Program-made: the position numbers and the translations under genes
Shown here: in pieces, positions 41,957 through 63,777 of the stretch
How the letters are laid out: every line of letters begins with the position of its first letter
How positions within the stretch are numbered: the stretch's first letter is position 1
DNA from: Saccharothrix carnea
GTDB lineage: Bacteria; Actinomycetota; Actinomycetes; Mycobacteriales; Pseudonocardiaceae
Assembly: GCF_003014735.1 (NCBI RefSeq)
Contig: NZ_PYAX01000005.1
Location: 186,001 to 250,000 of the forward strand
Reading direction: 5' to 3'
DNA: 64,000 nt
Notes under the pieces: generated by a model
What the model was told of the DNA's origin: nothing
Database searches by the model: none
What the model saw: the letters and a program-made list of their open reading frames with translations, nothing else

Positions 41957-43531
41957 GTGGCCAGCCCCTCGGAGCCCTCGCGGACGAACGCCGACGACAC
42001 CGACTCGCTCACCCCCGAGGAGCGGGTCAACCCCACGTGGACCGAGCCGCTGGCCCGGACCGCGAGCAAGCCGATCGGCGGGCCGGTCGGACGGCACGCG
42101 TCGGTCGGCAGGCAGTGGTTCTGGACACCGCTGCGGGTCGTGCTGCTGTTCGCGGTCGTGACGCTGGCGCTGTCGTGGTTCCAGAAGTCGCCGTGCATCC
42201 AGCAGTACGTGGACGACAACGGCGTGGTGCAGCTCGACTGGCGCGGCAGCAAGCAGTTCACCGCGATGTGCTACTCCGACACCGTGCCGCTGTACACGGC
42301 GGAGCGGTTGGACAAGCCGGACACGTTCCCCTACAAGACGTCCTGGGTGGACGACGAGGGCAAGCCGACGGCGCACGTGCGGTACATGGAGTACCCCGTG
42401 CTGACGGGCATGTTCCAGCTGCTCAACGCGCGCATGGCGCAGGGCTGGACGGTGATCGCCTCGTCCGGGTGGCTGCCGAACCCGATGACGGTGATCGTGT
42501 ACTTCAACATCACCGCGCTGTGGCTGGCGCTGGCGTGGCTGGTGACCGCGTACGCGGTGGCGCAACTGGCCAGGCGGCGGCCGTACGACGCGGTGCTGGT
42601 GGCGGTGTCGCCGCTGGTGATCGTGCACGCGTTCACCAACTTCGACACGCTGGCGACGGCGTTCGCGACGGCGGGCATGCTCGCGTGGGCGCGCAAGAAG
42701 CCGGTGCTGGCGGGCGTGCTGCTGGGGCTCGGGGGCGCGGCGAAGCTGTACCCGCTGTTCCTGCTCGGGCCGTTGCTGTTGCTGTGCTGGCGGTCGGGGC
42801 GGCTGAAGGCCGGGTGGACCACGTTCGGCGCGACTCTGGCGACGTGGGCGCTGGTGAACGCGCCGATCGCGTGGCTCTACCCGGACGGGTGGCGGGAGTT
42901 CTTCCGGCTGAACACCGAGCGCGGCGTCGACCCGGACTCGCTGTACAACGTGATCGCGCAGTGGACCGGGTGGCAGGGCTTCGACCCCGGTCTCGCGCAC
43001 GGCCAGGCGCCCGAGGTGCTGAACACGGTCAGCGCGGTGCTGTTCCTGGTGTGCTGCGCCGCGGTCGGGTTCGTGGCCATGTCCGCGCCGCGGCGGCCGA
43101 GGTTCGCGCAGCTGGCGTTCCTCGTGGTGGCCGCGTTCCTGCTGACGAACAAGGTGTGGAGCCCGCAGTACTCGCTGTGGCTCGTGCCGCTGGCCGTGCT
43201 GGCCCTGCCGCGGTGGAAACCGCTGCTGGCGTGGATGGTGGTGGACGCGCTGGTCTGGGTGCCCCGGATGTTCTTCTACCTGGGCGTGGAGAACAAGGGC
43301 CTGCCGATCGACTGGTTCCTGGGCACGGTCGTCGCGCGTGACGTCGCGGTGATCGTGCTGTGCGGGATGATCGTGCGCGAGATCTACCGGCCGAGCCGGG
43401 ACAAGGTGCGGCAGGCGGGCGATGACGACCCGTGCGGCGGTGTCTTCGACGGCGCACCGGACCGGTTCGCGCTGCGGTTCAAGCGGCGGCGCGAGGACGC
43501 CCCCGCGGTCGCCGCCGGTACGGGAAGCTAG
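41957..43531 (+). CDS. Membrane glycosyltransferase, GT87/DUF2029-type, 524 aa
   Basis: A ~60-residue acidic N-terminus precedes ten or more membrane helices. The extracytoplasmic region holds [21 protein letters not shown] and, further on, [10 protein letters not shown], plus [17 protein letters not shown] near the C-terminus. These are hallmarks of actinobacterial GT-C polyprenol-dependent glycosyltransferases. The gene follows ponA, as Rv0051 follows ponA1, and its product may build cell-envelope glycans. Its stop shares CTAG (43528-43531) with the convergent paralogue. Confidence 0.88.
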
Positions 43532-49029: not shown

Positions 49030-50391
49030 GTGGCGCTGGTGGACGACCGGGGCATGGCCGAGCCCGGCTTCGAACGGCAGCCGCCGCAGGACCTCGCCGC
49101 CGAGCAGTCGGTGCTGGGCGGGATGCTGCTGAGCAAGGACGCGATCGCCGACGTGGTCGAGGTCCTGGCACCCAACGACTTCTACCGGCCCGCGCACCAG
49201 GCCGTGTACGACTGCATCCTCGACCTGTACGGGCGGGGCGAGCCGGCCGACCCGATCACGGTGTCCGCCGAGCTCGAACGCCGGGGCGAGCTGCTGCGCG
49301 TGGGTGGCGCGCCGTACCTGCACACCCTGATCGCGACCGTGCCGACTGCCGCCAACGCTTCTTACTACGCCGAGATCGTGGCCGAGAAGGCGGTGTTGCG
49401 GCGGTTGGTGGAGGCCGGCACGCGGATCGTCCAGCTCGGCTACAACGGTGCCGAGGGCGCCGACGTGGACGAGGTGGTCGACCGGGCGCAGGCGGCGATC
49501 TACGAGGTCACCGAGCGCCGCACCACCGAGGACTACGTGGTGCTGGAGGAACTGCTCCAGCCGACCATGGACGAGATCGACGCCATCGCCTCGCGCGGCG
49601 GCTCGTCCTTGGGCATCCCCACCGGCTTCGCCGACCTGGACGAACTGACCAACGGCCTGCACCCCGGCCAGATGATCATCGTCGCCGCCCGCCCTGGCGT
49701 TGGCAAGTCAACCCTGGGACTGGATTTCGCCAGGTCGTGCTCGGTGAAGCACGGGTTGACCAGTGCGATCTTCTCGCTGGAGATGTCGCGCACCGAGATC
49801 GTCATGCGCATGCTGTCGGCCGAGGCGCGGATTCGGCTCGGGGACATGCGCGGTGGGCGGATGAGTGATGACGACTGGACGCGGTTGGCGCGGCGGATGA
49901 GTGAGATCAGCGAGGCGCCGCTGTTCGTCGACGACTCGCCGAACCTGACCATGATGGAGATCCGGGCGAAGGCTCGGCGGTTGAAGCAGCGGCACGACCT
50001 GCGGCTGGTGGTGGTCGACTACCTCCAGCTGATGTCGTCGGGCAAGCGCACCGAGTCCCGTCAGCAGGAGGTCTCGGAGTTCTCCCGGAACCTGAAGCTG
50101 ATCGCCAAGGAGCTCGAGGTGCCGGTGATCGCGATCAGCCAGCTCAACCGAGGTCCGGAACAGCGGACCGACAAGCGGCCGCAGCTGTCGGACCTGCGCG
50201 AGTCCGGTTCGCTGGAGCAGGACGCGGACATGGTGATCCTGATCAACCGCCCGGATGCGTGGGAGCGCGACGACCCCCGTGCCGGTGAGGCGGACCTGAT
50301 CATCGCCAAGCACCGCGCCGGCCCGACCGCCACCATCACCGTCGCCCACCAGCTGCACTACAGCCGCTTCGCCGACCTCGCCCAGGGCTGA
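49030..50391 (+). CDS. dnaB: Replicative DNA helicase DnaB, no intein
   Basis: 453 residues. The N-terminal domain QPPQDLAAEQSVLGGMLLSKDAIAD matches actinobacterial DnaB, and the RecA-like domain has Walker A AARPGVGKSTL, DYLQLMSSG and SQLNRGPEQR. The hexamer unwinds DNA ahead of the replisome. GTG 49030 gives VALVDDRG, like the MAVVDD of mycobacterial DnaB. Mycobacterial DnaB often carries inteins; this one does not. A perfect GTGAGCTCAC palindrome (49019-49028) abuts the start. Convergent with the STAND gene. Confidence 0.97.
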   Translation: MALVDDRGMAEPGFERQPPQDLAAEQSVLGGMLLSKDAIADVVEVLAPNDFYRPAHQAVYDCILDLYGRGEPADPITVSAELERRGELLRVGGAPYLHTLIATVPTAANASYYAEIVAEKAVLRRLVEAGTRIVQLGYNGAEGADVDEVVDRAQAAIYEVTERRTTEDYVVLEELLQPTMDEIDAIASRGGSSLGIPTGFADLDELTNGLHPGQMIIVAARPGVGKSTLGLDFARSCSVKHGLTSAIFSLEMSRTEIVMRMLSAEARIRLGDMRGGRMSDDDWTRLARRMSEISEAPLFVDDSPNLTMMEIRAKARRLKQRHDLRLVVVDYLQLMSSGKRTESRQQEVSEFSRNLKLIAKELEVPVIAISQLNRGPEQRTDKRPQLSDLRESGSLEQDADMVILINRPDAWERDDPRAGEADLIIAKHRAGPTATITVAHQLHYSRFADLAQG

Positions 50392-50423
50392 CCGGCTCGG
50401 GGGTCGCGGTCGCCGCCTGGTGA

Positions 50424-53400
50424 TCACCCCGTCTCGGTCGCGGTCTCGGCGAGGAACGCTTCGGCGACGTCGGTCAGTGCGGCGGGTTCCACCGCGGCGA
50501 GGGCGTCGACGGTGTCCCGCCAGTCGGCGAGCCGCAGCGCTCGGGCGATCAGCGGACGGGCGTCGGCCGGGTCGACGTGCCGCGCCACGTACCCCAGGGC
50601 ACTCGCCCGGAAGCGGGGTGCCAGGTCCCGGGCGAGGGTCACGGCCTGGTGGGGGTGCCCGGTGAGGGCCAGGGCTCTGATGACCTCTCCCAACGCCCAG
50701 GCCAGTGGGGACGAGACGGTGGCCGTGCGGAGTCCGGCTTCGGCCTCGCGGGCGAGGGTCGTGGCGTGGTCGCGATCACCGGCTCGTGCCGCGGCCTTCG
50801 CCACCAAGGCCAGCTCGCGAATCCGGTCCTCCTGACCGGGAGCGGTTCTGGCGATCGTGGCGGCATCTCTGATGAGGCGCCGGGCGTGGTCGGCTTCTCC
50901 GGCCCGCCCCGCGGCCGTCGCCGCTGCCGCCAGGAATTCCGCACGCCAACTGTCGACGCCGCAGTCCCGGGCCAGGGCTTCGACGTCCCGGACCAGCACG
51001 TGCGCGTGGTGACCGGCTTCCGCCGCTGCTCGCGCTGCCGCCGCGGCCGCCCTGAGCCGACCGTACGAGTCATCGGTGATCCCCTGGACGAGGTGTCTGG
51101 CGTGGTCGATGTCGCCGGCCCGCGCCACCGCCGCGATGACCTCGGCCAGCACCGGTGCCCTGTTGAGGCGGTTGGTGATGGTGTGGGCGACATCCAGGCC
51201 GTGTGCGGTGTCCCCGGCTTGCGCCGCCGCCTCTGCCACGATCATCCGCACCCACTCGCGATCGCGCTCGTCGGTGAGGACATCGGCGAGCGCCTCGGCT
51301 TCGGTGATGAGGGCCGTGGCGCGGTCGGCGCGTCCCGACCGGGCCAACGCCCGTGCCGCCGCCGCCATCGCCTGTGCCCGCCAGCGCGGGTCGGCGGTCG
51401 TCCTGGCGAAGGTTTCGGCGTGGCGGGCGAGTTCCGCGGCGCGGTCGAGGTCTCCGGTCCGCGCGACCGCGCTCGCGGCCTCGGCCAGCGCCAGCGCCCG
51501 CTGCGGCGCGGACGTGGGGGTCCTGACCAGCATTTCGGCGTGGTGGGCCAGTTGCGCGGCGCGGTCGTGGTCGGCGGCCAGGGCCACCAGCGTGATCGTT
51601 CTCGCTTGCCGTGCGGGGTCGGCGAGTGCCCGGGCCAGGGCTTCGGCGGCGTCCAGGTCCCCGTCCCGGATCAGGGTCTCCGCTGCCCGCGCCAACACCT
51701 GGTCCTGTTCGTACGGGTCGGCAAAGGTCTGCGGCGGAGTCGGCACGGATCGGGAGCCCCTGGCCCGACCCGCCAGCACTTCCGCCAGGATCGTCCCCCG
51801 CCACGCCGCGTTGTCGACCACGGTCCGGGCCGAGGACCAGGCGTGGTCGGCGAGGTGCGTCGCGTACTCGGTGTCACGGGCGAGGGCCGCGGCCTTGACC
51901 ACCGCGGCCAGCACCCACGCCTGTTGATCGGTCGGGTCGACGGCTCGTGCCGCCGCTTCGGCTTCACGGGCGATCGTCGCGGCGCGGTCGAGTTCTCCGG
52001 ACCGTGCCACGGCCTCGGCCACCGCGACCAGCGCCCGTGCCCGATCACCCGGGTCGGGAACCGCGCGAGCGAGGTTCGCGGCGCGGTGGTGATCACCGGC
52101 CCAGCACACGGCTCGTGCCGCCGCCACCAGCGTGGTCGTCCGGCCGTGCTGCCCGGCTCGGTCCCGAGCCACCGCGACGGCGTCGGAGGCGAACCGCGCC
52201 GCGCGGTCGAAGTCGCCTGCCCGCGTCGCCGCCTCGGCCATCCCGGCGAGCGCCCAAGCGCGCTGGACCGGGTCGGCGATGGCACGGGCCACCGCCGCGG
52301 CGCCCCGGAAGTCCCCTGTGCGTGCTCCGGCCTCGGCCACCCACCTCAGCACCTCGGCCTGCTCGCCGGGGTCGGTGGCCTCGCCGGCGACCGCGACGGC
52401 CTGATCGAGGTCTCCGGCTCGCGCCGCCGCTTTCGCCACCTCGCGCAGCGCTTGGAAGCGCGGGAACCGTTCCGGGATGGTCCGGGCCACCGCCGTGGCG
52501 CCGCGAACGTCCCCCGCTCGTGCGCCGGCCGCCGCCACTCCGCTCAGCGCCTCTGCCCGACGGTGCTCGCCGGCAACCTCGTGCGCCAGGGCGACACCGT
52601 GATCGAGGTTCCCGCTCCGCGCCGCCGCGCCCGCCACCAGGGCCAGCGCCTTGTCGCGCTCCTGTGGATACCCGATCCCGTGGACGATCTCCTCGGCCTC
52701 ACCCAGCACCTCGTCGGCACGGACCTCTTCACCGGCCGGGTGCTCGGCCAGCGCCTCGCACAGCTTCGCCATCGCCTCTACCCGGGTGAGCGGATCGGCG
52801 ATGGACCGGGCCAGGGCATGGGCGCGGATCGGACGACCGAGCCGCGCCCACACGGCGGGCAGTGCGACCGGTACGTGGCGGTTGCGCTCGACCAGGCTGT
52901 CCCGACGTGCGGCGAGCAGGGTCATGTTCCGCAGGTCCGCGGGATCGTGGTCGAGCAGGGCGTCCTGGGCGGTGGTGATCTCGGCGAGGGCGGTGGTGTC
53001 CCCGCCGATGACGTCCAGCATCCGGTCGTGGCGGGCCGGGTCGAGGGCGCAGGCGATCATCCTGGTCAGGTCGCCGGTGGCGTGCAGCACGGGGAAGTAG
53101 CCGCGCAACAGGTAGTCGGGCGTGCCCGCCGGCCAGCCCTCATCGCGGTAGCGGGCGGCCCACGCGTGCAGGCGCTGCCGGTAGCCGTCCAGCCGGGACG
53201 GGCCCAGGAACGCCACGGCCGCGTTCTGCAGTTCCTCGTGGGCGAGCAGGTACACCTCGGGGCGGTCACCGGGCCGGCCCGCCCGCCGGCGGAACGTGCG
53301 CCCGGACACCGCGCGCAGCTCGTCGTCCACCTCCCACCGCGCCGACCCGGTCAGCTCGGCGAGGTCACCGCTGCCGAGCCCGCCACCGGCGGTGGCCACC

Positions 53401-54203
53401 AGGCCGAGCAGGTCCTGCTCGGTGGACGTGCCGCGCAGGAGCCGCTTGAGCTCGCGCTCGGCCTCGGCGCGGACCGTCGCCGCGTGGGGTGACGGGCTCA
53501 GGACCTCGACCACGCCGGGGTCGCGCAGCGGGTGGTCACCGGGCACGTCGGCGGGCAGCGGCGGTTCCGGCCGCCCCGCGACCACCACCCGCAGGCCCGC
53601 CGCCGGGTGGGCGGGCAGCAGCGCCGCGATGCTGTGCGCGTCGGGAGCGGTGGTCACGCCGCGGTCCTCGTCCAGCCCGTCCACGACCAGCACCAGGCGC
53701 TCACCGCGGTCGGCGCACCGGCGGGCGGCGTCGGCCAGCATCGACAGCAGGTGCGCGTCGCGGGTGGCCTCGGTCAAGTAGGCGGGCACCGGCTCGTGGA
53801 GCAGCTCGGCGAGCTGCTCCAGCAGCACGTCGGTGAACGCGACCCGGTCGCTCTGCCCCGCGTAGCGGGCGGTGACGAAGAACGACACCACCCGCACCCC
53901 CGCCGGTGGGTGCAGCACGAACCAGGCCAGCAGCGCCGACTTGCCCGCCCAGGCCCGCGCACGCCACCACAGGTAGGCCCGGCCGTCCGGCGCGGTGCAG
54001 AACTCGCTCAGCCGCGCCAGTTCCCGCTCGCGGTCGCGCAACGACTCCGGGGCGATCCGGCGCACCTGCTCCCGGTAGGCCGACCGCGGCACCCGGTCAC
54101 CCGAGACGATGGTGACGTTCCCGACGATGTGGCCGGCCTGCACCACCACCCCGCCGACCGCCGGGCCCGTGGTGGTGTTGTGGACCTCGGGCGTGTCTGT
54201 CAC
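50424..54203 (-). CDS. STAND-type P-loop NTPase with many TPR-like repeats, 1259 aa
   Basis: Residues 1-35 form a Gly/Val-rich strand region (VGGVVVQAGHIVGNVTI). The NTPase domain has an atypical Walker A, RARAWAGKSALL (Lys88; Ala at the first Gly position), and a Walker B-like LVLVVDGLDED (Asp174). Residues ~460-1200 are about 20 or more helix pairs containing ARxGDxDxA-type turns, a TPR-like solenoid. No toxin or nuclease domain is visible. GTG 54203 is used; an upstream GTG at 54212 is possible. It is third in the kinase-NACHT-STAND set, 55 bp after the NACHT stop, and may sense or transmit a signal. Confidence 0.85.
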   Translation of the reverse strand: MTDTPEVHNTTTGPAVGGVVVQAGHIVGNVTIVSGDRVPRSAYREQVRRIAPESLRDRERELARLSEFCTAPDGRAYLWWRARAWAGKSALLAWFVLHPPAGVRVVSFFVTARYAGQSDRVAFTDVLLEQLAELLHEPVPAYLTEATRDAHLLSMLADAARRCADRGERLVLVVDGLDEDRGVTTAPDAHSIAALLPAHPAAGLRVVVAGRPEPPLPADVPGDHPLRDPGVVEVLSPSPHAATVRAEAERELKRLLRGTSTEQDLLGLVATAGGGLGSGDLAELTGSARWEVDDELRAVSGRTFRRRAGRPGDRPEVYLLAHEELQNAAVAFLGPSRLDGYRQRLHAWAARYRDEGWPAGTPDYLLRGYFPVLHATGDLTRMIACALDPARHDRMLDVIGGDTTALAEITTAQDALLDHDPADLRNMTLLAARRDSLVERNRHVPVALPAVWARLGRPIRAHALARSIADPLTRVEAMAKLCEALAEHPAGEEVRADEVLGEAEEIVHGIGYPQERDKALALVAGAAARSGNLDHGVALAHEVAGEHRRAEALSGVAAAGARAGDVRGATAVARTIPERFPRFQALREVAKAAARAGDLDQAVAVAGEATDPGEQAEVLRWVAEAGARTGDFRGAAAVARAIADPVQRAWALAGMAEAATRAGDFDRAARFASDAVAVARDRAGQHGRTTTLVAAARAVCWAGDHHRAANLARAVPDPGDRARALVAVAEAVARSGELDRAATIAREAEAAARAVDPTDQQAWVLAAVVKAAALARDTEYATHLADHAWSSARTVVDNAAWRGTILAEVLAGRARGSRSVPTPPQTFADPYEQDQVLARAAETLIRDGDLDAAEALARALADPARQARTITLVALAADHDRAAQLAHHAEMLVRTPTSAPQRALALAEAASAVARTGDLDRAAELARHAETFARTTADPRWRAQAMAAAARALARSGRADRATALITEAEALADVLTDERDREWVRMIVAEAAAQAGDTAHGLDVAHTITNRLNRAPVLAEVIAAVARAGDIDHARHLVQGITDDSYGRLRAAAAAARAAAEAGHHAHVLVRDVEALARDCGVDSWRAEFLAAAATAAGRAGEADHARRLIRDAATIARTAPGQEDRIRELALVAKAAARAGDRDHATTLAREAEAGLRTATVSSPLAWALGEVIRALALTGHPHQAVTLARDLAPRFRASALGYVARHVDPADARPLIARALRLADWRDTVDALAAVEPAALTDVAEAFLAETATETG

Positions 54204-54258
54204 GACGACCACTCTGGCGCACGGCCACCGACCGCAGAAGGCCCGACCGCGGCACCGG

Positions 54259-56436
54259 TTACCGGTTGCCCAGCGCGAGCAGCAGCACGCGCAGGTCCGG
54301 CTCGGCCGACATCAGGCCGGGCAGTTCGTCGTCGTGCTCGCGGAACGCGTAGCGGGTCAGCATGCGCACGCCGGACTCGGTCAGGACCCAGAAGCGCTCG
54401 CCGCCGCCGAACTTGCGCTCCTGCTCGGCGGCGCCCACCCGGCGCAGTTCCGACCACCCGCGCTGATCGGTGCACTCCTTCAGGCTGATCATCCGCACCA
54501 GGCCGTCCGCCGACCGCCGCTTGAGCGGCTTGATCATCACGTCCAGGCGGGTGCACCCGCGCGCGAGCCGGGCCGCGTCGTCGGTCGCCTTGGGGAACTC
54601 GGTGCCTTCCGTGTTCAGCTGGAGCACCGACTCGTCGTAGTCGCACTGCCTGGCGTTGACGCAGTAGGTCAGCGAGCCCGACCCGCTGAGGCGGCGCAAC
54701 GTCCAGCCCTGGAGGTCCAGCTGCTGGACGACGACGTCGGCCAGCAGCGTGTCGCACAGGGACTTCCCACCCAGCAGCCCGGACAGGCACGCCGACCGCA
54801 CGGCCGGGCTCTCACCCGCGCACTCGTCCTCCACCCGGGCCAGGGCGATCGCCAGCACGTTGCGCCTGAGCAACGGGTACTCGCCGGTCGCCCTGGACCA
54901 CCCGCGCGCGATGTCGTCGAGGCCCAGCATGCGGGCCAGGTACTCGACCGTCATGTCGTCGAGCTTGGTGCCGCGCAGGTCACCGGTCACGGAGCCGAAG
55001 CCGAGGCGCCGCCAGTCCTCGGAGATCGCCTTGGCGGCGAACAACAACAGGAACTCCGTGTACTTGAACACGACCATCCCGTCCGCGGTGCGGGTGAGCA
55101 GCGCGTGCGGGTTCAGGATCATGGCCGCCTTCGGCTCGGCGACGTCGATGCCCAGGTGCTCCAGCGCGGAGTGCTCGTTGAGGTCGCCCAGCAGGTGCGT
55201 CCAGTGCGCGAAGTCGGTCAGCACCGCCATCTGCTCCTTGGAGTCGACGCCGAGGCGTTCCTCGTCCCGCACGCAGAGCAGCTCCAACAGCGCCAGCAGG
55301 ACGTTCGTCCGGGACGACGCCACGGCGACGTCCAGCTCGTCCTTCAGGTTCACGTAGTACGCCAGCAGCAGGAACAGCGGGATGCCCTGCGCCTTCGAGG
55401 ACTGCAGCGCCTTGAGCACCTCGTCCGCCCGGTCGGGGTCGGCGCCGTTCTTCAGCAGCAGCTCGCGCCCGCCGGCCGGTTCCATCGGTTCGATCGTCGC
55501 GATCTCGCCGCTGTCGAAGATCGTACCGATCGTGCGGGTGGAGTTCAGGTGGCCGAGCCGGCTGGACACCGCCAGCCGGGCACCGTCGTCCACGGCCCGC
55601 CGCAGTTCGCGCAACCCCTCTTCGAGCTTCGCGCGGGAGATCATCAACTCGTCGGTGCCGTCGAGCAGCAGGATCAACCGCTGCCTGCGCAGCAGTTCCA
55701 GCAGGAAGCGACCGCTGTCCAGCCGGTTCAGCGCGGGCAGGTCGTCCTCGTCGGACGGGCGCGAGAGGTAGTGCGCGATCGCGTCGAGCGACAGGGTGCG
55801 CAAGCCCCGCAGCGGAACTCTGAGGGCCACCGGCGGGTAGGTGTGCGCTCGCTGGGCGACCGCCGACTCGTAGAACACCGCGTAACGCCACTCGTGCCAC
55901 TTCAGCAGTTCGCTCTTGCCCAATCCGGCGTCCGCGAGGATCGCCAGCGCCGAGCCGCTCGCGCTCAGCGCCCGCTCCAGGAGCCTGTTGTCCGGGACCC
56001 GCTCGCCGCCGAGCTTGAGGTACTGCTTGACGTGGCGGTCGGGCGCGGTGAGTTCGGGCGCGACGAAACCCTCGAAGTTGTCCGCCGTCTCGGCGTCGCG
56101 CCGCGCGCGGACCGCCGCGGTGGACGCGTCCCACAGGATGTCGATGAAGTGCGTGATCCGGTTCACCCGCGGTTCCCTGCCCGCGGCGCGCATGGCCTCC
56201 TCGACGCGCTCGACCTCCTTCGCCGGGGTGAGGTCGGGGACGAGGATCCTGGTCGGGCGCACCTGGGCGATCTCGGTGCCGGTGAGCGCGATCGCCTCGC
56301 CCGCCATCCACACGTGCTTGATGTTGTCGAGCGTCGGCTCGACCGCGCGGATGGTGAACCGGGTCGCGTCACAACGCCAGCCCCGAGCCTGCAGGAGGCT
56401 CCGGACGCTCTCCGCCAGGACCGAGGTGTACGCCAT
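54259..56436 (-). CDS. NACHT-type NTPase, 725 aa, candidate defence protein
   Basis: Residues 1-~130 form an alpha/beta N-terminal domain I do not recognise. Then comes a NACHT-type P-loop, LADAGLGKSELLKW (Lys174; Ala instead of the first Gly), and the DGTDELM motif (259-265) of NACHT Walker B. A ~330-residue helical region and a C-terminal winged-helix-like domain follow. Bacterial NACHT proteins are known in antiphage defence and often carry an effector at the N-terminus. Here no nuclease motif is clear. The ATG lies 2 bp after the kinase stop, so translation is coupled. Confidence 0.87.
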   Translation of the reverse strand: MAYTSVLAESVRSLLQARGWRCDATRFTIRAVEPTLDNIKHVWMAGEAIALTGTEIAQVRPTRILVPDLTPAKEVERVEEAMRAAGREPRVNRITHFIDILWDASTAAVRARRDAETADNFEGFVAPELTAPDRHVKQYLKLGGERVPDNRLLERALSASGSALAILADAGLGKSELLKWHEWRYAVFYESAVAQRAHTYPPVALRVPLRGLRTLSLDAIAHYLSRPSDEDDLPALNRLDSGRFLLELLRRQRLILLLDGTDELMISRAKLEEGLRELRRAVDDGARLAVSSRLGHLNSTRTIGTIFDSGEIATIEPMEPAGGRELLLKNGADPDRADEVLKALQSSKAQGIPLFLLLAYYVNLKDELDVAVASSRTNVLLALLELLCVRDEERLGVDSKEQMAVLTDFAHWTHLLGDLNEHSALEHLGIDVAEPKAAMILNPHALLTRTADGMVVFKYTEFLLLFAAKAISEDWRRLGFGSVTGDLRGTKLDDMTVEYLARMLGLDDIARGWSRATGEYPLLRRNVLAIALARVEDECAGESPAVRSACLSGLLGGKSLCDTLLADVVVQQLDLQGWTLRRLSGSGSLTYCVNARQCDYDESVLQLNTEGTEFPKATDDAARLARGCTRLDVMIKPLKRRSADGLVRMISLKECTDQRGWSELRRVGAAEQERKFGGGERFWVLTESGVRMLTRYAFREHDDELPGLMSAEPDLRVLLLALGNR

Positions 56437-56438
56437 CG

Positions 56439-57740
56439 CTAGTCACCTTCGATCGCGCGGAGCAGCACGGGCGGCAGGCTCAGGTGCCGCAGGTTGGCCC
56501 GGCACCAGTCGGCCACCGCCGGGTGGGTCCGGACGTGGTGCGCCAGTGCCTGGATCACCGTCTCGTCGCGTTCGGCCGCGACGCAGCGGCTGACGATGTA
56601 GTTCGCCTCGGCGATCGAGTAGCGGGCCGCCAGCGTGACCGACGCGAGCAGGCTCAACTCCCGCGTCGCGCCGTCCGGGGATATGCCGAGGACGTCCTCG
56701 ATGAAACGCAGGCTCGTCATCACGTAGTCGAGTGCCAGCGGTTCTTCGAGGAAGGAAACGTACGATTCCAGCACGGGCAGCATCGCCGGCGCGTGGTGCG
56801 CGAGCAGTGCCTGGAGCAGGACGTACGGCAATCGGGGCAGCGTGCGCGTCGCCAGTTGGAAGTCGTCCCGGTGTTCGAGCAGGAACTGCGCCAACTGGCG
56901 GGTGCTCTCCAGGTCCGCGGACTCGTTCTCGATCAGCGCCTGGATCAGGCCGAGCGCCGTGTCCACCGGGCGCTGCAACGACGTCGGGTGGTCGATGACC
57001 AACCGGAAATCATCGTGGAACTCCTCCGCCGTCCGATAGCGGTGGTCGGCGTTGACCGCGGTCGCGGTGCGCACGCAGTATTCGAGCCGGCGGGTCAGCG
57101 GGGAATCGGGCACGGCGACGGTCGCGAGCACGTACGCCAGGATCTGGCCCAGGCTGTAGATGTCCGCCCGGTGGTCGACGCCGCCGAAGTCGGTCCACTG
57201 CTCCGGCGCCGCCCACCCCGGCGTGCCCGCGCCGAGGCGTGACGCGGTCCTGAACGAGGCGTCCCTGGTGAAGGCACGGCCGAGACCGAAGTCGGCGACC
57301 CGTGCGTACCGGCGCCCGCCGCCGTTCCCGGCGAAGACCAGGACGTTCTCCGGCTTGAGGTCGCGGTGCAGCACCCGGTTGCGGTGGGCGAAGGCCACTC
57401 CGGTCAACGCGTCGCCGAACAGCGCGAGGGCGTCGGACTCGCCCAGGATCGGCAACACCTCGGCCATGTTCCCTTCGGCCAACGGCGCGGCGTACCAGGG
57501 ATTGGCCATGTCCAGGCTGTGGTCGAGGACCGGCAGGATGTTGCGGTGGTTCAACTGGCTCTGCAGTCGCACCTCGCGGCTGAATCGCACTCGATCCTCG
57601 TCGTCCATGAGCGCGAGCGGGATCTTGATGACCACCGGTCGGTCCGGGTCGTGCTTCTCGCGCGCCTCCCACACCGAGCCGAAACCACCGCTCGCTATTT
57701 TCCTGATCGGCAGGTATTGCGCCGGGAAATCATCGGGCAT
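56439..57740 (-). CDS. Cytoplasmic eukaryotic-like Ser/Thr protein kinase, 433 aa
   Basis: The kinase domain spans residues ~10-270: glycine loop ASGGFGSVWEA, Lys39 in VVIKIP, Glu56 in FSREVRL, HRDLKPEN (HRD 125-127), DFG (150-152), APE in WAAPEQW and DIYSLG. All catalytic residues are present, so it should be active. Residues ~275-433 are helical with no transmembrane segment or PASTA domain, unlike PknB. ATG 57740 has GGAGG 8 nt upstream. It is the first gene of the set; the NACHT ATPase follows after 2 bp. It may phosphorylate the NACHT or STAND protein. Confidence 0.92.
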   Translation of the reverse strand: MPDDFPAQYLPIRKIASGGFGSVWEAREKHDPDRPVVIKIPLALMDDEDRVRFSREVRLQSQLNHRNILPVLDHSLDMANPWYAAPLAEGNMAEVLPILGESDALALFGDALTGVAFAHRNRVLHRDLKPENVLVFAGNGGGRRYARVADFGLGRAFTRDASFRTASRLGAGTPGWAAPEQWTDFGGVDHRADIYSLGQILAYVLATVAVPDSPLTRRLEYCVRTATAVNADHRYRTAEEFHDDFRLVIDHPTSLQRPVDTALGLIQALIENESADLESTRQLAQFLLEHRDDFQLATRTLPRLPYVLLQALLAHHAPAMLPVLESYVSFLEEPLALDYVMTSLRFIEDVLGISPDGATRELSLLASVTLAARYSIAEANYIVSRCVAAERDETVIQALAHHVRTHPAVADWCRANLRHLSLPPVLLRAIEGD

Positions 57741-57982
57741 GAGCGCCGCCTCCACCAATGACACGGGCACGCGCGCATTACTCGGCCCGGCCCGGAGAAT
57801 CGCGAACCAGTCGGAGCAGCGGCTGACTTACCCTACTTTCGGCGGGTCGGCACGGATGGTTACAGCCCTCACCCGAATGCACTAGCACCCGCTGCCCCGG
57901 CTCTGCGCTCGCGGTGGGGGATCACCGGTTCGGCGGGTTGTGGGTCATTCCCGCACCCGAGAACTGCGCCTACGATCGAAAG
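57741..57982. promoter_or_regulatory. Divergent promoter region, kinase operon and tetR
   Basis: This 242-bp gap has no gene. A TAGGGT hexamer (57830-57835, minus) is a candidate -10 for the kinase operon with a ~90-nt leader. TACGAT (57971-57976, plus) lies 6 nt before the tetR ATG. No clear palindrome was found. Confidence 0.4.
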
Positions 57983-60378: not shown

Positions 60379-63300
60379 TCAGATGCGCGGCAGCACGGTG
60401 GTGACCTCGTGCGCGTTGAACAGGCTGCGCGCGTCCATGTCCGCCAGGGCCGGGGCCTGGGTGTCGGTGAACCGGGTCGGGCCGACGCCACCCTGCATCG
60501 GGTTGACGTTCAGGCCGCTCAGCGACAGCGGCGGCAGCGCCGGGGACTCGCTGCGCGGCTGCGCCACACCGGGCACCGGCAGCACGAACGGCAGGCCGGC
60601 CGGCGCCGCGACGGGCAGCGACGACACGGCGCGACCGCCCTGGGTGAGGCCCTGCAGCGGCAGGTTGTCCACGACGGGGATCCCCTGCGTGGTGACGAGG
60701 TCGCCGACCACCGGCAGGGTGCCGCCGAACGAGCGCTCGTCCGAGTCGGTCCGCACCGAACGGGTCAGCACCGCGCCGAGCGGCAGCGTGCCGAGGGCGG
60801 CACGCGCCCCTTCACCGACAGCCGGCAGCCCGTGCTGGACCTGGTCGACGTCACCGAGCCGCGGCAGCTGGTCGGTCAGGTCGGACACCGCGCCCAGCTT
60901 GGGCAGCTGACGGGTCGGCAGCTCGGCCTGCGACAGCGCGCCGGCCGGGCCGGCGAGCGACGGCGGCTTGGCCTGCGACAGCGCGCCGACCGGGCCGGCC
61001 AGCGACGGCGGCTTGGCCTGCGACAGCGCGCCGACGATCATGTCCGGCCTCGGCGCCGCCGGCTTCGGCAGGTCGGGCTTCGGGACCGCCCTGGACAGCA
61101 GCGCGCCACCCGGCATCGGGAGCTGGGTGAGGCCCTGGATCGGCAGGCCGCGCAGGTCGTCGATGCCCGGCGTGCTCAGCGGCACGGTGTACTGCGACAA
61201 CCGGCTCAGCAGGCCCAGGCTCGGCAGTTCGGTCGCCCGCAGCAGGCTGTCGACGCCGGCCGGGAGCTGGATGCCCCGGTTCGGCTCGGTGACCTCGGTG
61301 TCGTCGCCCCGGTCGTCACCGGTGCGGACGTCGTTGCGGTCCTGGGCGTTCGCGGTGGCCGTGCCGAGCACGTCCACCGGGACGCCGACCAGGCGGGCGA
61401 ACGCCTCGGCCGGCGCCTCGACGTCGTGCGCGCTGACCGGGCCGTGGCCCTCGGTGGTGGTGACGCCACCGGAGTGGCTGGTCGACCGGCTGCCGGTCGC
61501 GGCGTCCGCGAGACCGGCCACGGTCACCGCGTCACCGTGCACCGACGGCGTGACACCGGCGGGCGCGGTGACCAGGTTGCCCGACCACGCGCTGTCCTCG
61601 GCGGAGGTCAGGTGCTCGCCACCGGCGATCAGGCCGGTCTTGTTGTCGGTCTGGGAGTAGCCGTTGCCCGCCGCGGTCACGGCGTCGCCGAACAGCTGCA
61701 GCGGGATCGACGGCTGGGCGCCGACGCCGTTGCCGGAGAACGAACCGTCGTCACCGGAGGTCTGCACGTCGCCGCCCGAGTGCGAGCCGAACTCGTTGCG
61801 GCTCTCCGACTCGACGTTGCTGCCCGCGCCGACCGCGCTGCCGAACACCTGCGGCGACGACGCCTCGGGCAACGACAGCACGTTGCCCGACAGCGAGCCC
61901 TCGTCACCGGTGGTGGTGGCGGCGCCGCCGGAGCGGGAGTCGAGCCTGCTGTCGGTCTCGGACGAGCCGTTGCCGACCGCGACGACGGAGTCGCCGAAGA
62001 CCTGGGCCGGGTTGGACGTCGGCACGTGCACGATGTTGCCGGAGGCGGAACCGTGCTTGCCGTTGGCCTTGGGCGGGTTGGCGAGGTCGATCCGGGTGTC
62101 GCTGTCGGTCTTCGACGTCGGGTTGGCGACCGCGCCACCCGAGTTGCCGAACACCTGGCCGCCCAGGGCGGTCGGTGCGGACACGACGTTGCTGGACACG
62201 GTGCCGTTGTCGTCCACGCTGGTCGCCACCCGGCCGGAACGCACGTACTTGTCCTCGTCGGCCCGGGCGGTGGGCGTGCCCGCCGCGCCGAAGCCGTTGC
62301 CGAACGCCTCGGCGGGCAGGCCGAGCGGCACCTGGCCGACGTTGCCGGAGCCGACCGCGTCGTTGCCGGTCGTGCCGTTGTAGCCGCCGGACTCCGCGCT
62401 GACGTCGTTGCCGCACTCGGCCTCGGCGATACCGCCGCCGGTCAGGCCGTTGCCGCACAGGTCGGCCGCGCCGGCCGGCGGCAGGTTCGCCGAGTTGGCC
62501 GACAGCACGGAGCGGTCGCCGTTGGTGTAGGTGTCGCCGCCGGTGACCGCGGTGGCCTCGTTGGCGTGCCGGGCCGAGGTGTTGCCCACGCCGGACAGCG
62601 CGTTGCCCGCGCCGGAGACCGGCAGGGCGACCGGGGTGTCGGCGAAGTTGCCGGACAGCACCGAGTCCTGGCCCGCGGTGTAGCTGTGGCCGCCCGCCTC
62701 GGCGTCGTGGGCCATCGCGTTGGTGACCCGCGCGTTGCCCGCGCCCGCCAGCGTGTTGTCGCCGGCGGCGACGGGGCCCGCGAACGCGGGCTGCGCCACG
62801 TTGCCCGCGAGGGTGCCGCCGTTGCCGGAGGTGGCCGACCACATCGGGAGGTCGGTCCGGTCGCGGTTGGTGGTGCCCGCGTCGGAGGACGCCCGGTTCT
62901 CGGTGACGGTCTCCGCGTTGCCCGCGGCACCGACGCCGTTGCCGGTGACCGCGACGACCGGTGCGAGCGGCGTGCCCAGGACGTTGCCGCCGCCGGTGCT
63001 GCGGTCGCCGGTGGTGCTCAGCGAGCCGGCGGCCTGCGCGTCGTTGGACGACGTGGCCTCGCTGTAGGCGTTGCCGCCCGCGGCGACCGCGTTGTTGGTC
63101 ACCTGCGCGGGCAGCGCGCCCTGGACGGCGGCGATGTTGCCCGACAGCGAGCCGTCCTGGCCCGAGGTCTTGACGTTGTCGCCGGCGGTCGCGCGCTGGT
63201 AGGAGATCGCGCGGGACTCGGCGTTGGCCAGGGCGGCGACCGCGTTGCCGTTGACCTGGGGCGAGACGGCGGCGGCGCCGTGCGCCACGTTGCCGGCCAG

Positions 63301-63777
63301 GGTGCCGTACGAGCCGTCGCTCCTGATCTCGCCCGTGCTGCTCGCGGACTGGACGCAGACGCCGTCGCTGTAGGCGTCGCCGCCCGCCGCGATCGCGTTG
63401 CCGCAGGCGCTGACCGGCACGACGACATCGGCGTCGGCGGTGTTGCCGCGGGTCAGGGCTGACGTGTCGACGCCGGTCAGCCGCTCCCGCGCGGTGCGGA
63501 CCAGCGGGTTGGCGGGGCCGGTGAGCTCCCGGATCGGCCGGTCCGCCGCGGACGGCGTGCCGATCTCGTGGTGGACGGCCGGCAGGTCGTGGTTGCCGAC
63601 CGGGGTGCCCAGGTTGTTGTGGTCGACGTCGACCGGGACGCGCACCTTCGCGTCGAGCGGGTTCGGTTTCGCGTCGGGGTTGACGTTCTCCTGGGCTGAA
63701 GCGATGCCCGTGCCGAGCATCAGCAAACCACCCGTGACAAGTGCGGTCTTCAGACCACGCTTGGCCCAGGTTTGCAT
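60379..63777 (-). CDS. Very large secreted repeat protein, chaplin-like Cys motifs, 1132 aa
   Basis: A Sec signal peptide (LKTALVTGGLLMLGTGIASAQ) leads a ~30-residue acidic linker. Residues ~120-760 are tandem ~55-65-residue units with GNAVAAxGNA and (D/E)GSLSGN-type turns, a beta-helix pattern. Two units carry Cys pairs in chaplin-like context: VSACGNAIAAGG...DGVCV and DLCGNGLTGGG...ECGND. The C-terminal ~350 residues are Pro/Leu-rich with a 15-residue repeat GALSQAKPPSLAGPV (60926-61035). GGAGA lies before ATG 63777. Likely cell-surface or aerial-hypha material; no enzymatic motif. Confidence 0.85.
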   Translation of the reverse strand: MQTWAKRGLKTALVTGGLLMLGTGIASAQENVNPDAKPNPLDAKVRVPVDVDHNNLGTPVGNHDLPAVHHEIGTPSAADRPIRELTGPANPLVRTARERLTGVDTSALTRGNTADADVVVPVSACGNAIAAGGDAYSDGVCVQSASSTGEIRSDGSYGTLAGNVAHGAAAVSPQVNGNAVAALANAESRAISYQRATAGDNVKTSGQDGSLSGNIAAVQGALPAQVTNNAVAAGGNAYSEATSSNDAQAAGSLSTTGDRSTGGGNVLGTPLAPVVAVTGNGVGAAGNAETVTENRASSDAGTTNRDRTDLPMWSATSGNGGTLAGNVAQPAFAGPVAAGDNTLAGAGNARVTNAMAHDAEAGGHSYTAGQDSVLSGNFADTPVALPVSGAGNALSGVGNTSARHANEATAVTGGDTYTNGDRSVLSANSANLPPAGAADLCGNGLTGGGIAEAECGNDVSAESGGYNGTTGNDAVGSGNVGQVPLGLPAEAFGNGFGAAGTPTARADEDKYVRSGRVATSVDDNGTVSSNVVSAPTALGGQVFGNSGGAVANPTSKTDSDTRIDLANPPKANGKHGSASGNIVHVPTSNPAQVFGDSVVAVGNGSSETDSRLDSRSGGAATTTGDEGSLSGNVLSLPEASSPQVFGSAVGAGSNVESESRNEFGSHSGGDVQTSGDDGSFSGNGVGAQPSIPLQLFGDAVTAAGNGYSQTDNKTGLIAGGEHLTSAEDSAWSGNLVTAPAGVTPSVHGDAVTVAGLADAATGSRSTSHSGGVTTTEGHGPVSAHDVEAPAEAFARLVGVPVDVLGTATANAQDRNDVRTGDDRGDDTEVTEPNRGIQLPAGVDSLLRATELPSLGLLSRLSQYTVPLSTPGIDDLRGLPIQGLTQLPMPGGALLSRAVPKPDLPKPAAPRPDMIVGALSQAKPPSLAGPVGALSQAKPPSLAGPAGALSQAELPTRQLPKLGAVSDLTDQLPRLGDVDQVQHGLPAVGEGARAALGTLPLGAVLTRSVRTDSDERSFGGTLPVVGDLVTTQGIPVVDNLPLQGLTQGGRAVSSLPVAAPAGLPFVLPVPGVAQPRSESPALPPLSLSGLNVNPMQGGVGPTRFTDTQAPALADMDARSLFNAHEVTTVLPRI
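60926..61035 (-). repeat. 45-bp coding tandem repeat (15 aa)
   Basis: Copies start at 60926, 60971 and, in part, 61016, all inside the repeat protein's Pro/Leu-rich region. The first two encode GALSQA(K/E)-type units; copy number can vary by slippage. Confidence 0.8.

Follow-up and report, generated by a model that had tools for sequence, protein, structure and literature searches.

Three adjacent genes of Saccharothrix carnea, encoding a Ser/Thr kinase, a NACHT-type ATPase and a STAND ATPase, may well be two accessory immune-type units lying side by side: a kinase-NACHT pair, and a STAND sensor that would work with a small effector in trans. We give this reading an even chance. The genes fill positions 50424-57740 of the window (the whole stretch of 64,000 nucleotides that was analysed), all on the minus strand, and the GC3 of this stretch (0.89-0.96) agrees with coding. 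The open reading frames listed in an earlier note on this DNA are real. The STAND gene spans 50424-54212, with an alternative start at 54203, the NACHT-type ATPase gene spans 54259-56436, and the longest form of the kinase ORF spans 56439-57770. The kinase ATG lies at 57740, behind GGTGGAGG, and a GTG at 57770 is a possible alternative start; the starts at 57740 and 54203 fit the earlier numbers. Only 2 bp separate the kinase stop from the NACHT ATG, as had been claimed, with AAGGTG a few bases 5' of this ATG, and the pair looks translationally coupled from its sequence. The gap between NACHT and STAND is the 55 bp given earlier if STAND starts at 54203, and 46 bp if it starts at 54212.

The genes occupy a site of variable content (50392..57913) between dnaB and a TetR-exonuclease-GGDEF-chaplin block, delimited by comparison with genus relatives. 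On one side, dnaB (plus strand) ends at 50391 and is convergent with the STAND stop; on the other, a plus-strand gene, identified as TetR by Pfam, begins at 57914. Of 24 genus relatives, 23 were read beyond dnaB (G013 was left out). In 22 of these, all but L110, TetR or the exonuclease could be recognised downstream of the dnaB gene. The distance from dnaB to TetR or the exonuclease goes from less than 70 bp (L106) up to 12.5 kb (L103), with different genes in between, and tblastn (1e-6) found no homologue of the kinase, NACHT or STAND genes after dnaB in the 23 relatives. Because the interval changes and the relatives carry no homologues of the trio there, we regard the trio as accessory genes inserted at a variable site, in agreement with the earlier note. 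Some features of the surroundings are worth recording. A chaplin-like repeat surface protein of 1132 residues (60379-63777 of the window), with three sub-threshold ChpA-C stretches, can be recognised beyond the variable site in most of the genus relatives read. DnaB seems to carry a P-loop insertion in 12 of 25 genus genomes (L085-L096; the query matched only from residue 71), with an intein-type HN/S junction in all three insertions inspected. An ARAGORN tRNA call at 42043-42141 of the window has an undefined four-base anticodon, overlaps coding-like ORFs and is probably false.

The earlier note had taken the three genes for one system. If so, the NACHT and STAND proteins would both be sensors acting upstream of a single kinase effector, which we consider improbable. 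The common strand, the short gaps and the lack of an obvious promoter in them (by eye) speak for it, and with a gap of 46-55 bp all three genes could be on one transcript. However, we found no co-conservation for the two genes that have relatives, the kinase and the STAND gene. No kinase or NACHT homologue lies beside the other STAND copies at any of 29 loci, within flanks of up to 1.5 kb (shorter for L049, at a contig end). We also scanned eleven other kinase-family loci, 11-17 kb each, for ORFs of at least 200 residues in which a loose P-loop precedes a Walker B of NACHT/STAND type, and no such ORF turned up at any of them. The same scan recovers the STAND gene of the window. Near the kinase relatives of L124 and L129, the P-loop genes encode an FtsK-like protein and RuvB. 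In addition, STAND relatives in other genomes have a small partner of their own. The defence or signalling flavour given earlier to the locus is supported by the families involved and by the variable insertion site; its three-gene architecture finds no such backing.

The kinase (433 aa from the ATG, 56439..57740, minus strand) is cytoplasmic and catalytically intact, as previously stated. Its domain is PF00069 (Pfam, E 2.6e-26), and K39, E56, HRD 125-127, DFG 150-152 and APE 178-180 are invariant across four aligned members of the family. The C-terminal tail of ~170 residues (56442..57008, minus strand) is family-specific and is predicted to fold as an 11-helix alpha-solenoid (pLDDT 90.2) with a generic helical-repeat, ARM/HEAT-like shape. 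Most simply, this predicted fold would be a protein-contact domain. Judged from sequence comparisons, the tail defines a rare kinase family. Besides its own copy, there is one tail-bearing relative among 98 other related genomes, and at least one among 396 other genomes of the order, where up to 8 candidates per genome were scored at first look. A pattern scan of the genome contig collection gave 8 kinase-family loci, including three weak ones (E 6e-7 to 9e-5). Two relatives (L002, L003) are plasmid-borne, and L125 is probably the same record as the G241 match.

These relatives bear on another reading, in which the kinase would work on its own as a single-gene defence kinase like PD-T4-6 and the NACHT gene would be an unrelated, fast-evolving passenger. 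Gene calls were read around nine kinase-family loci (L124-L129, L002, L003, L024), which together with L130 and L131 make up the eleven scanned for P-loops. The kinase relatives mostly stand alone, several of the nine near integrases, IS elements or element genes, and the best PADLOC models of the window's kinase are themselves kinases, which argues for this reading. Yet the matches to these models (mad6 and PD-T4-6) span the generic kinase domain only, at residues ~5-214 for PD-T4-6 (E 5e-36), and the 2-bp junction suggests a coupled pair. We therefore find the lone kinase rather unlikely. The kinase of the window resembles PD-T4-6 and related defence kinases in PADLOC by its kinase domain, and differs from PD-T4-6 by its family-specific solenoid tail and its NACHT neighbour. 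Unlike mad6 of MADS, it matches by domain only: a full-length mad6 match is absent and the NCBIfam score (69.6 bits) lies below the curated cut-off of 460. Separately, the weak kinase relative in a Pseudodesulfovibrio MAG (L131:1633-3716) has directly behind it a gene that by eye looks like a PP2C phosphatase.

The second member of the pair (54259..56436, minus strand) is an orphan of 725 aa. That it is a NACHT-type ATPase, as earlier proposed, is supported by eye by a Walker A motif (ADAGLGKS) and DGTDEL, but the Pfam match of its core (PF05729, residues 169-330, 55447..55932, minus strand) remains below threshold. The E-value is 0.027 (0.0046 for the core alone), with scores of 14.8 and 17.3 bits where the cut-off is 26.7. 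No domain was assigned to the terminal regions flanking the core (~1-150 and ~480-725). Homology searches found no relative of the protein beyond itself; four of five weak matches to its N-terminus were inspected, and none of the four lies in a NACHT-like gene. As relatives of the NACHT protein could not be detected, we treat the kinase-NACHT pair as a candidate module seen in a single genome. The NACHT protein shares a NACHT-type ATPase core with bNACHT antiphage proteins such as bNACHT25 (described in the available part of PMC12169576), and differs from them by its sub-threshold scores, by having no relative found and by its pairing with a kinase. NACHT proteins act in defence, according to the accessible text of PMC13092281. 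With this role and the 2 bp spacing in mind, we infer that the NACHT protein may be a switch for the kinase.

The third gene (50424..54212, minus strand) encodes a protein of 1259-1262 aa. The earlier description of a STAND ATPase with a TPR-like solenoid is upheld for the ATPase and, by periodicity, for the solenoid. The P-loop domain (residues 72-216, 53565..53999, minus strand) matches NPHP3_N, AAA_22 and NACHT in Pfam, NPHP3_N being above the cut-off (E 7.7e-6), and the protein matches the PADLOC model STAND_TPR (PDLC01173) with E 8e-110. Residues ~531-1262 (50427..52622, minus strand) show a 33/40-residue periodicity (autocorrelations of 0.213 and 0.194, where shuffles gave 0.170 at most), but no TPR model matched this region in the Pfam scan. 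By these matches, the gene is a member of a common, paralogous actinobacterial family: a search with its ATPase region gave 41 matches, spread over 18 of 60 genomes. This count includes its own genome, with three of the matches. The protein also matches 16 plasmid records. At five STAND loci (L027, L028, L030, L031, L035), the upstream gene looks by eye like a ribose-phosphate pyrophosphokinase. The likeness to STAND_TPR, a candidate system from Streptomyces, extends to the same ATPase region and the TPR-like periodicity. The two differ at the N-terminus: the model description names an Xre-HTH, whereas the STAND protein of the window has an amyloid-type motif and neither an HTH nor another DNA-binding domain in the Pfam scan. 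STAND ATPases and Hanks kinases also have regulatory roles in actinomycetes. The genes described here could be signalling or developmental genes apart from defence, the STAND protein a regulator of transcription or antibiotic production and the kinase a Hanks-type regulator. The missing DNA-binding domain, the patchy distribution and the variable site argue against such roles, which leaves this reading unlikely.

The N-terminus of the STAND protein resembles, in sequence, a bacterial amyloid-signalling (BASS) motif. The BASS/RHIM-like motif HNTTTGPAVGGVVVQAGHIVGNVTIV (54105..54182, minus strand) scores 15.1 with a profile built from eight further motif-bearing proteins encoded in this genome. 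When the first 60 residues were shuffled 20000 times, 8 shuffles scored at least as high, and 300 shuffles of the whole protein scored at most 8.1. On the other hand, among 2000 shuffles of the 60-residue stretch the top score was 19.9, above the real one. The STAND motif is also weaker than those of the other eight proteins, which score 30.6-42.1 when each is left out in turn, a range that is inflated, since the core pattern had itself served to choose seven of the eight, and the last was noticed next to those. The motif recurs within the family: a loose pattern of its core is found at 22 of 30 STAND loci (20 of the 27 from other genomes) and is absent from the remaining 8, compared with a mean expectation of 1.9 and a maximum of 6 in 1000 shuffles, and with 2 of 174 control windows. 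The kinase and NACHT proteins score -8.7 and -9.7, within their shuffles, and have no such motif. Hence, the earlier remark that no effector is visible can be partly answered for STAND: its N-terminus would not be an effector domain, and the amyloid-type motif points to a separate small effector.

Scanning the genome for this motif gave 15 matches, compared with 3 in a reversed control. Eight were judged genuine by context (L008, L009, L010, L012, L013, L014, L017, L021), L010 being the STAND gene of the window. By Pfam, the motif bearers of this genome include NB-ARC-TPR proteins (L067, L069), a NACHT protein with HEAT-like repeats (L071:2940-8903) and an NB-ARC protein with a CHAT domain (L066:978-4853). 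We also noted a GNAT protein (L066:12596-13786) with a looser motif-like N-terminus, and a pseudokinase on contig C9 (L065:7473-8573) in which VVHGG replaces HRD, PF00069 is sub-threshold and the same amyloid-type motif is N-terminal. The latter adjoins an SF1 helicase (AAA_11/AAA_12, L065:4551-7463), and the two resemble a Mokosh-like pair.

Among the 15 matches only one, L008/L068, carries the motif at the C-terminus; the scan was strict and will have missed other bearers. It is a protein of 110 residues (contig C3:609430-609759), unlinked to the STAND gene. We call it BELL-like from its sequence resemblance and description rather than from a curated model: it has no Pfam match and its hydrophobicity peak is modest (1.34). 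Matches occur in 19 of the 25 genus genomes, the own one included, and in all 19 the gene lies beside the same downstream gene, i.e. at a fixed locus. The C-terminal motif is kept in 17 of 18 sequences compared (L151 was left out of the comparison, and L150 has no motif). The same query also matched STAND relatives in their N-terminal region, in G022 (6.5e-5, with one stop within the matched stretch) and G020 (3.1e-4), and gave other weak matches in G005 and G021. Against a link between both proteins, their association across the 25 genomes is not significant (13/2/6/4, Fisher p 0.18), and G012 and G019 have the STAND gene and no BELL-like match.

Adjacent pairs with matching motifs exist elsewhere. 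On a Nocardia plasmid, a BELL-like homologue lies directly behind an NB-ARC-TPR gene, with QARD variants of the motif in both. On two Streptomyces plasmids (L004, L157), STAND relatives follow a small protein of the 167-residue class with a related C-terminal motif (FGQ..GDV-type). The match is clear in L157, where the two sides read FGQVGRDV and FGQVSGDV, and the STAND-side motif is degenerate in L004 (FNKVTGSV). BASS/BELL bacterial amyloid NLR signalosomes were reportedly described by Dyrka et al. in 2020. The available portions of PMC7889193, PMC9815663 and PMC12261475 present them as an NLR with a short N-terminal motif plus a small protein with a matching C-terminal motif, in multicellular actinobacteria, an arrangement that for PMC7889193 is the same as in the adjacent pairs seen here. 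Our case is similar in these three elements, the motif by sequence and less strongly than in the other motif bearers of this genome, and the likeness is given without a BASS family assignment. It differs in that the STAND gene of the window has no small-effector ORF beside it, nor room for one, the sole candidate found being the unlinked gene at the fixed locus, and in that several motif-bearing sensors occur in one genome. At the level of primary sequence, we have documented the STAND motif, its recurrence, its match in a small protein and the adjacent matched pairs elsewhere. Most likely, the STAND protein is a common BASS-type sensor that acts on a small effector in trans.

The two units would then operate independently. 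In the first, where the two genes and their spacing are observed, the NACHT protein would be a sensor and ATP-driven switch that turns on the kinase. The solenoid tail would supply contacts, and phosphorylation of host proteins by the kinase would stop growth of the infected cell. In the second, the solenoid of the STAND-TPR sensor would bind a ligand, upon which the ATPase would oligomerise and line up the N-terminal amyloid-type motifs. The aligned motifs could template the matching C-terminal motif of the BELL-like protein in trans, which would trigger a membrane or cell-death response.

A broader and more tentative possibility, less likely than not, is that the genus has a branched amyloid immune network, in which a single BELL-like executioner, encoded at a fixed locus of the core genome, serves many unlinked accessory sensors bearing the same motif. 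The STAND protein of the window would be a freely moving input, and the kinase-NACHT pair a separate, undescribed defence module. With the same reserve, the sensors assigned to the hub would be the STAND-TPR, NB-ARC-TPR, NB-ARC-CHAT and NACHT-HEAT proteins and the pseudokinase beside the helicase. The available part of PMC7889193 describes the amyloid signalosomes of bacteria as pairs of adjacent genes, one for the sensor and one for the effector, and mentions unlinked effectors only for fungi. The kinase family with the alpha-solenoid tail is a second testable lead. The many-sensor, one-effector amyloid network is a notable one. If true, a conserved unlinked effector served by several motif-matched accessory sensors would turn bacterial amyloid signalling into a network with a shared hub, comparable to the immune networks of fungi and plants, and would predict genes that act together without being neighbours.
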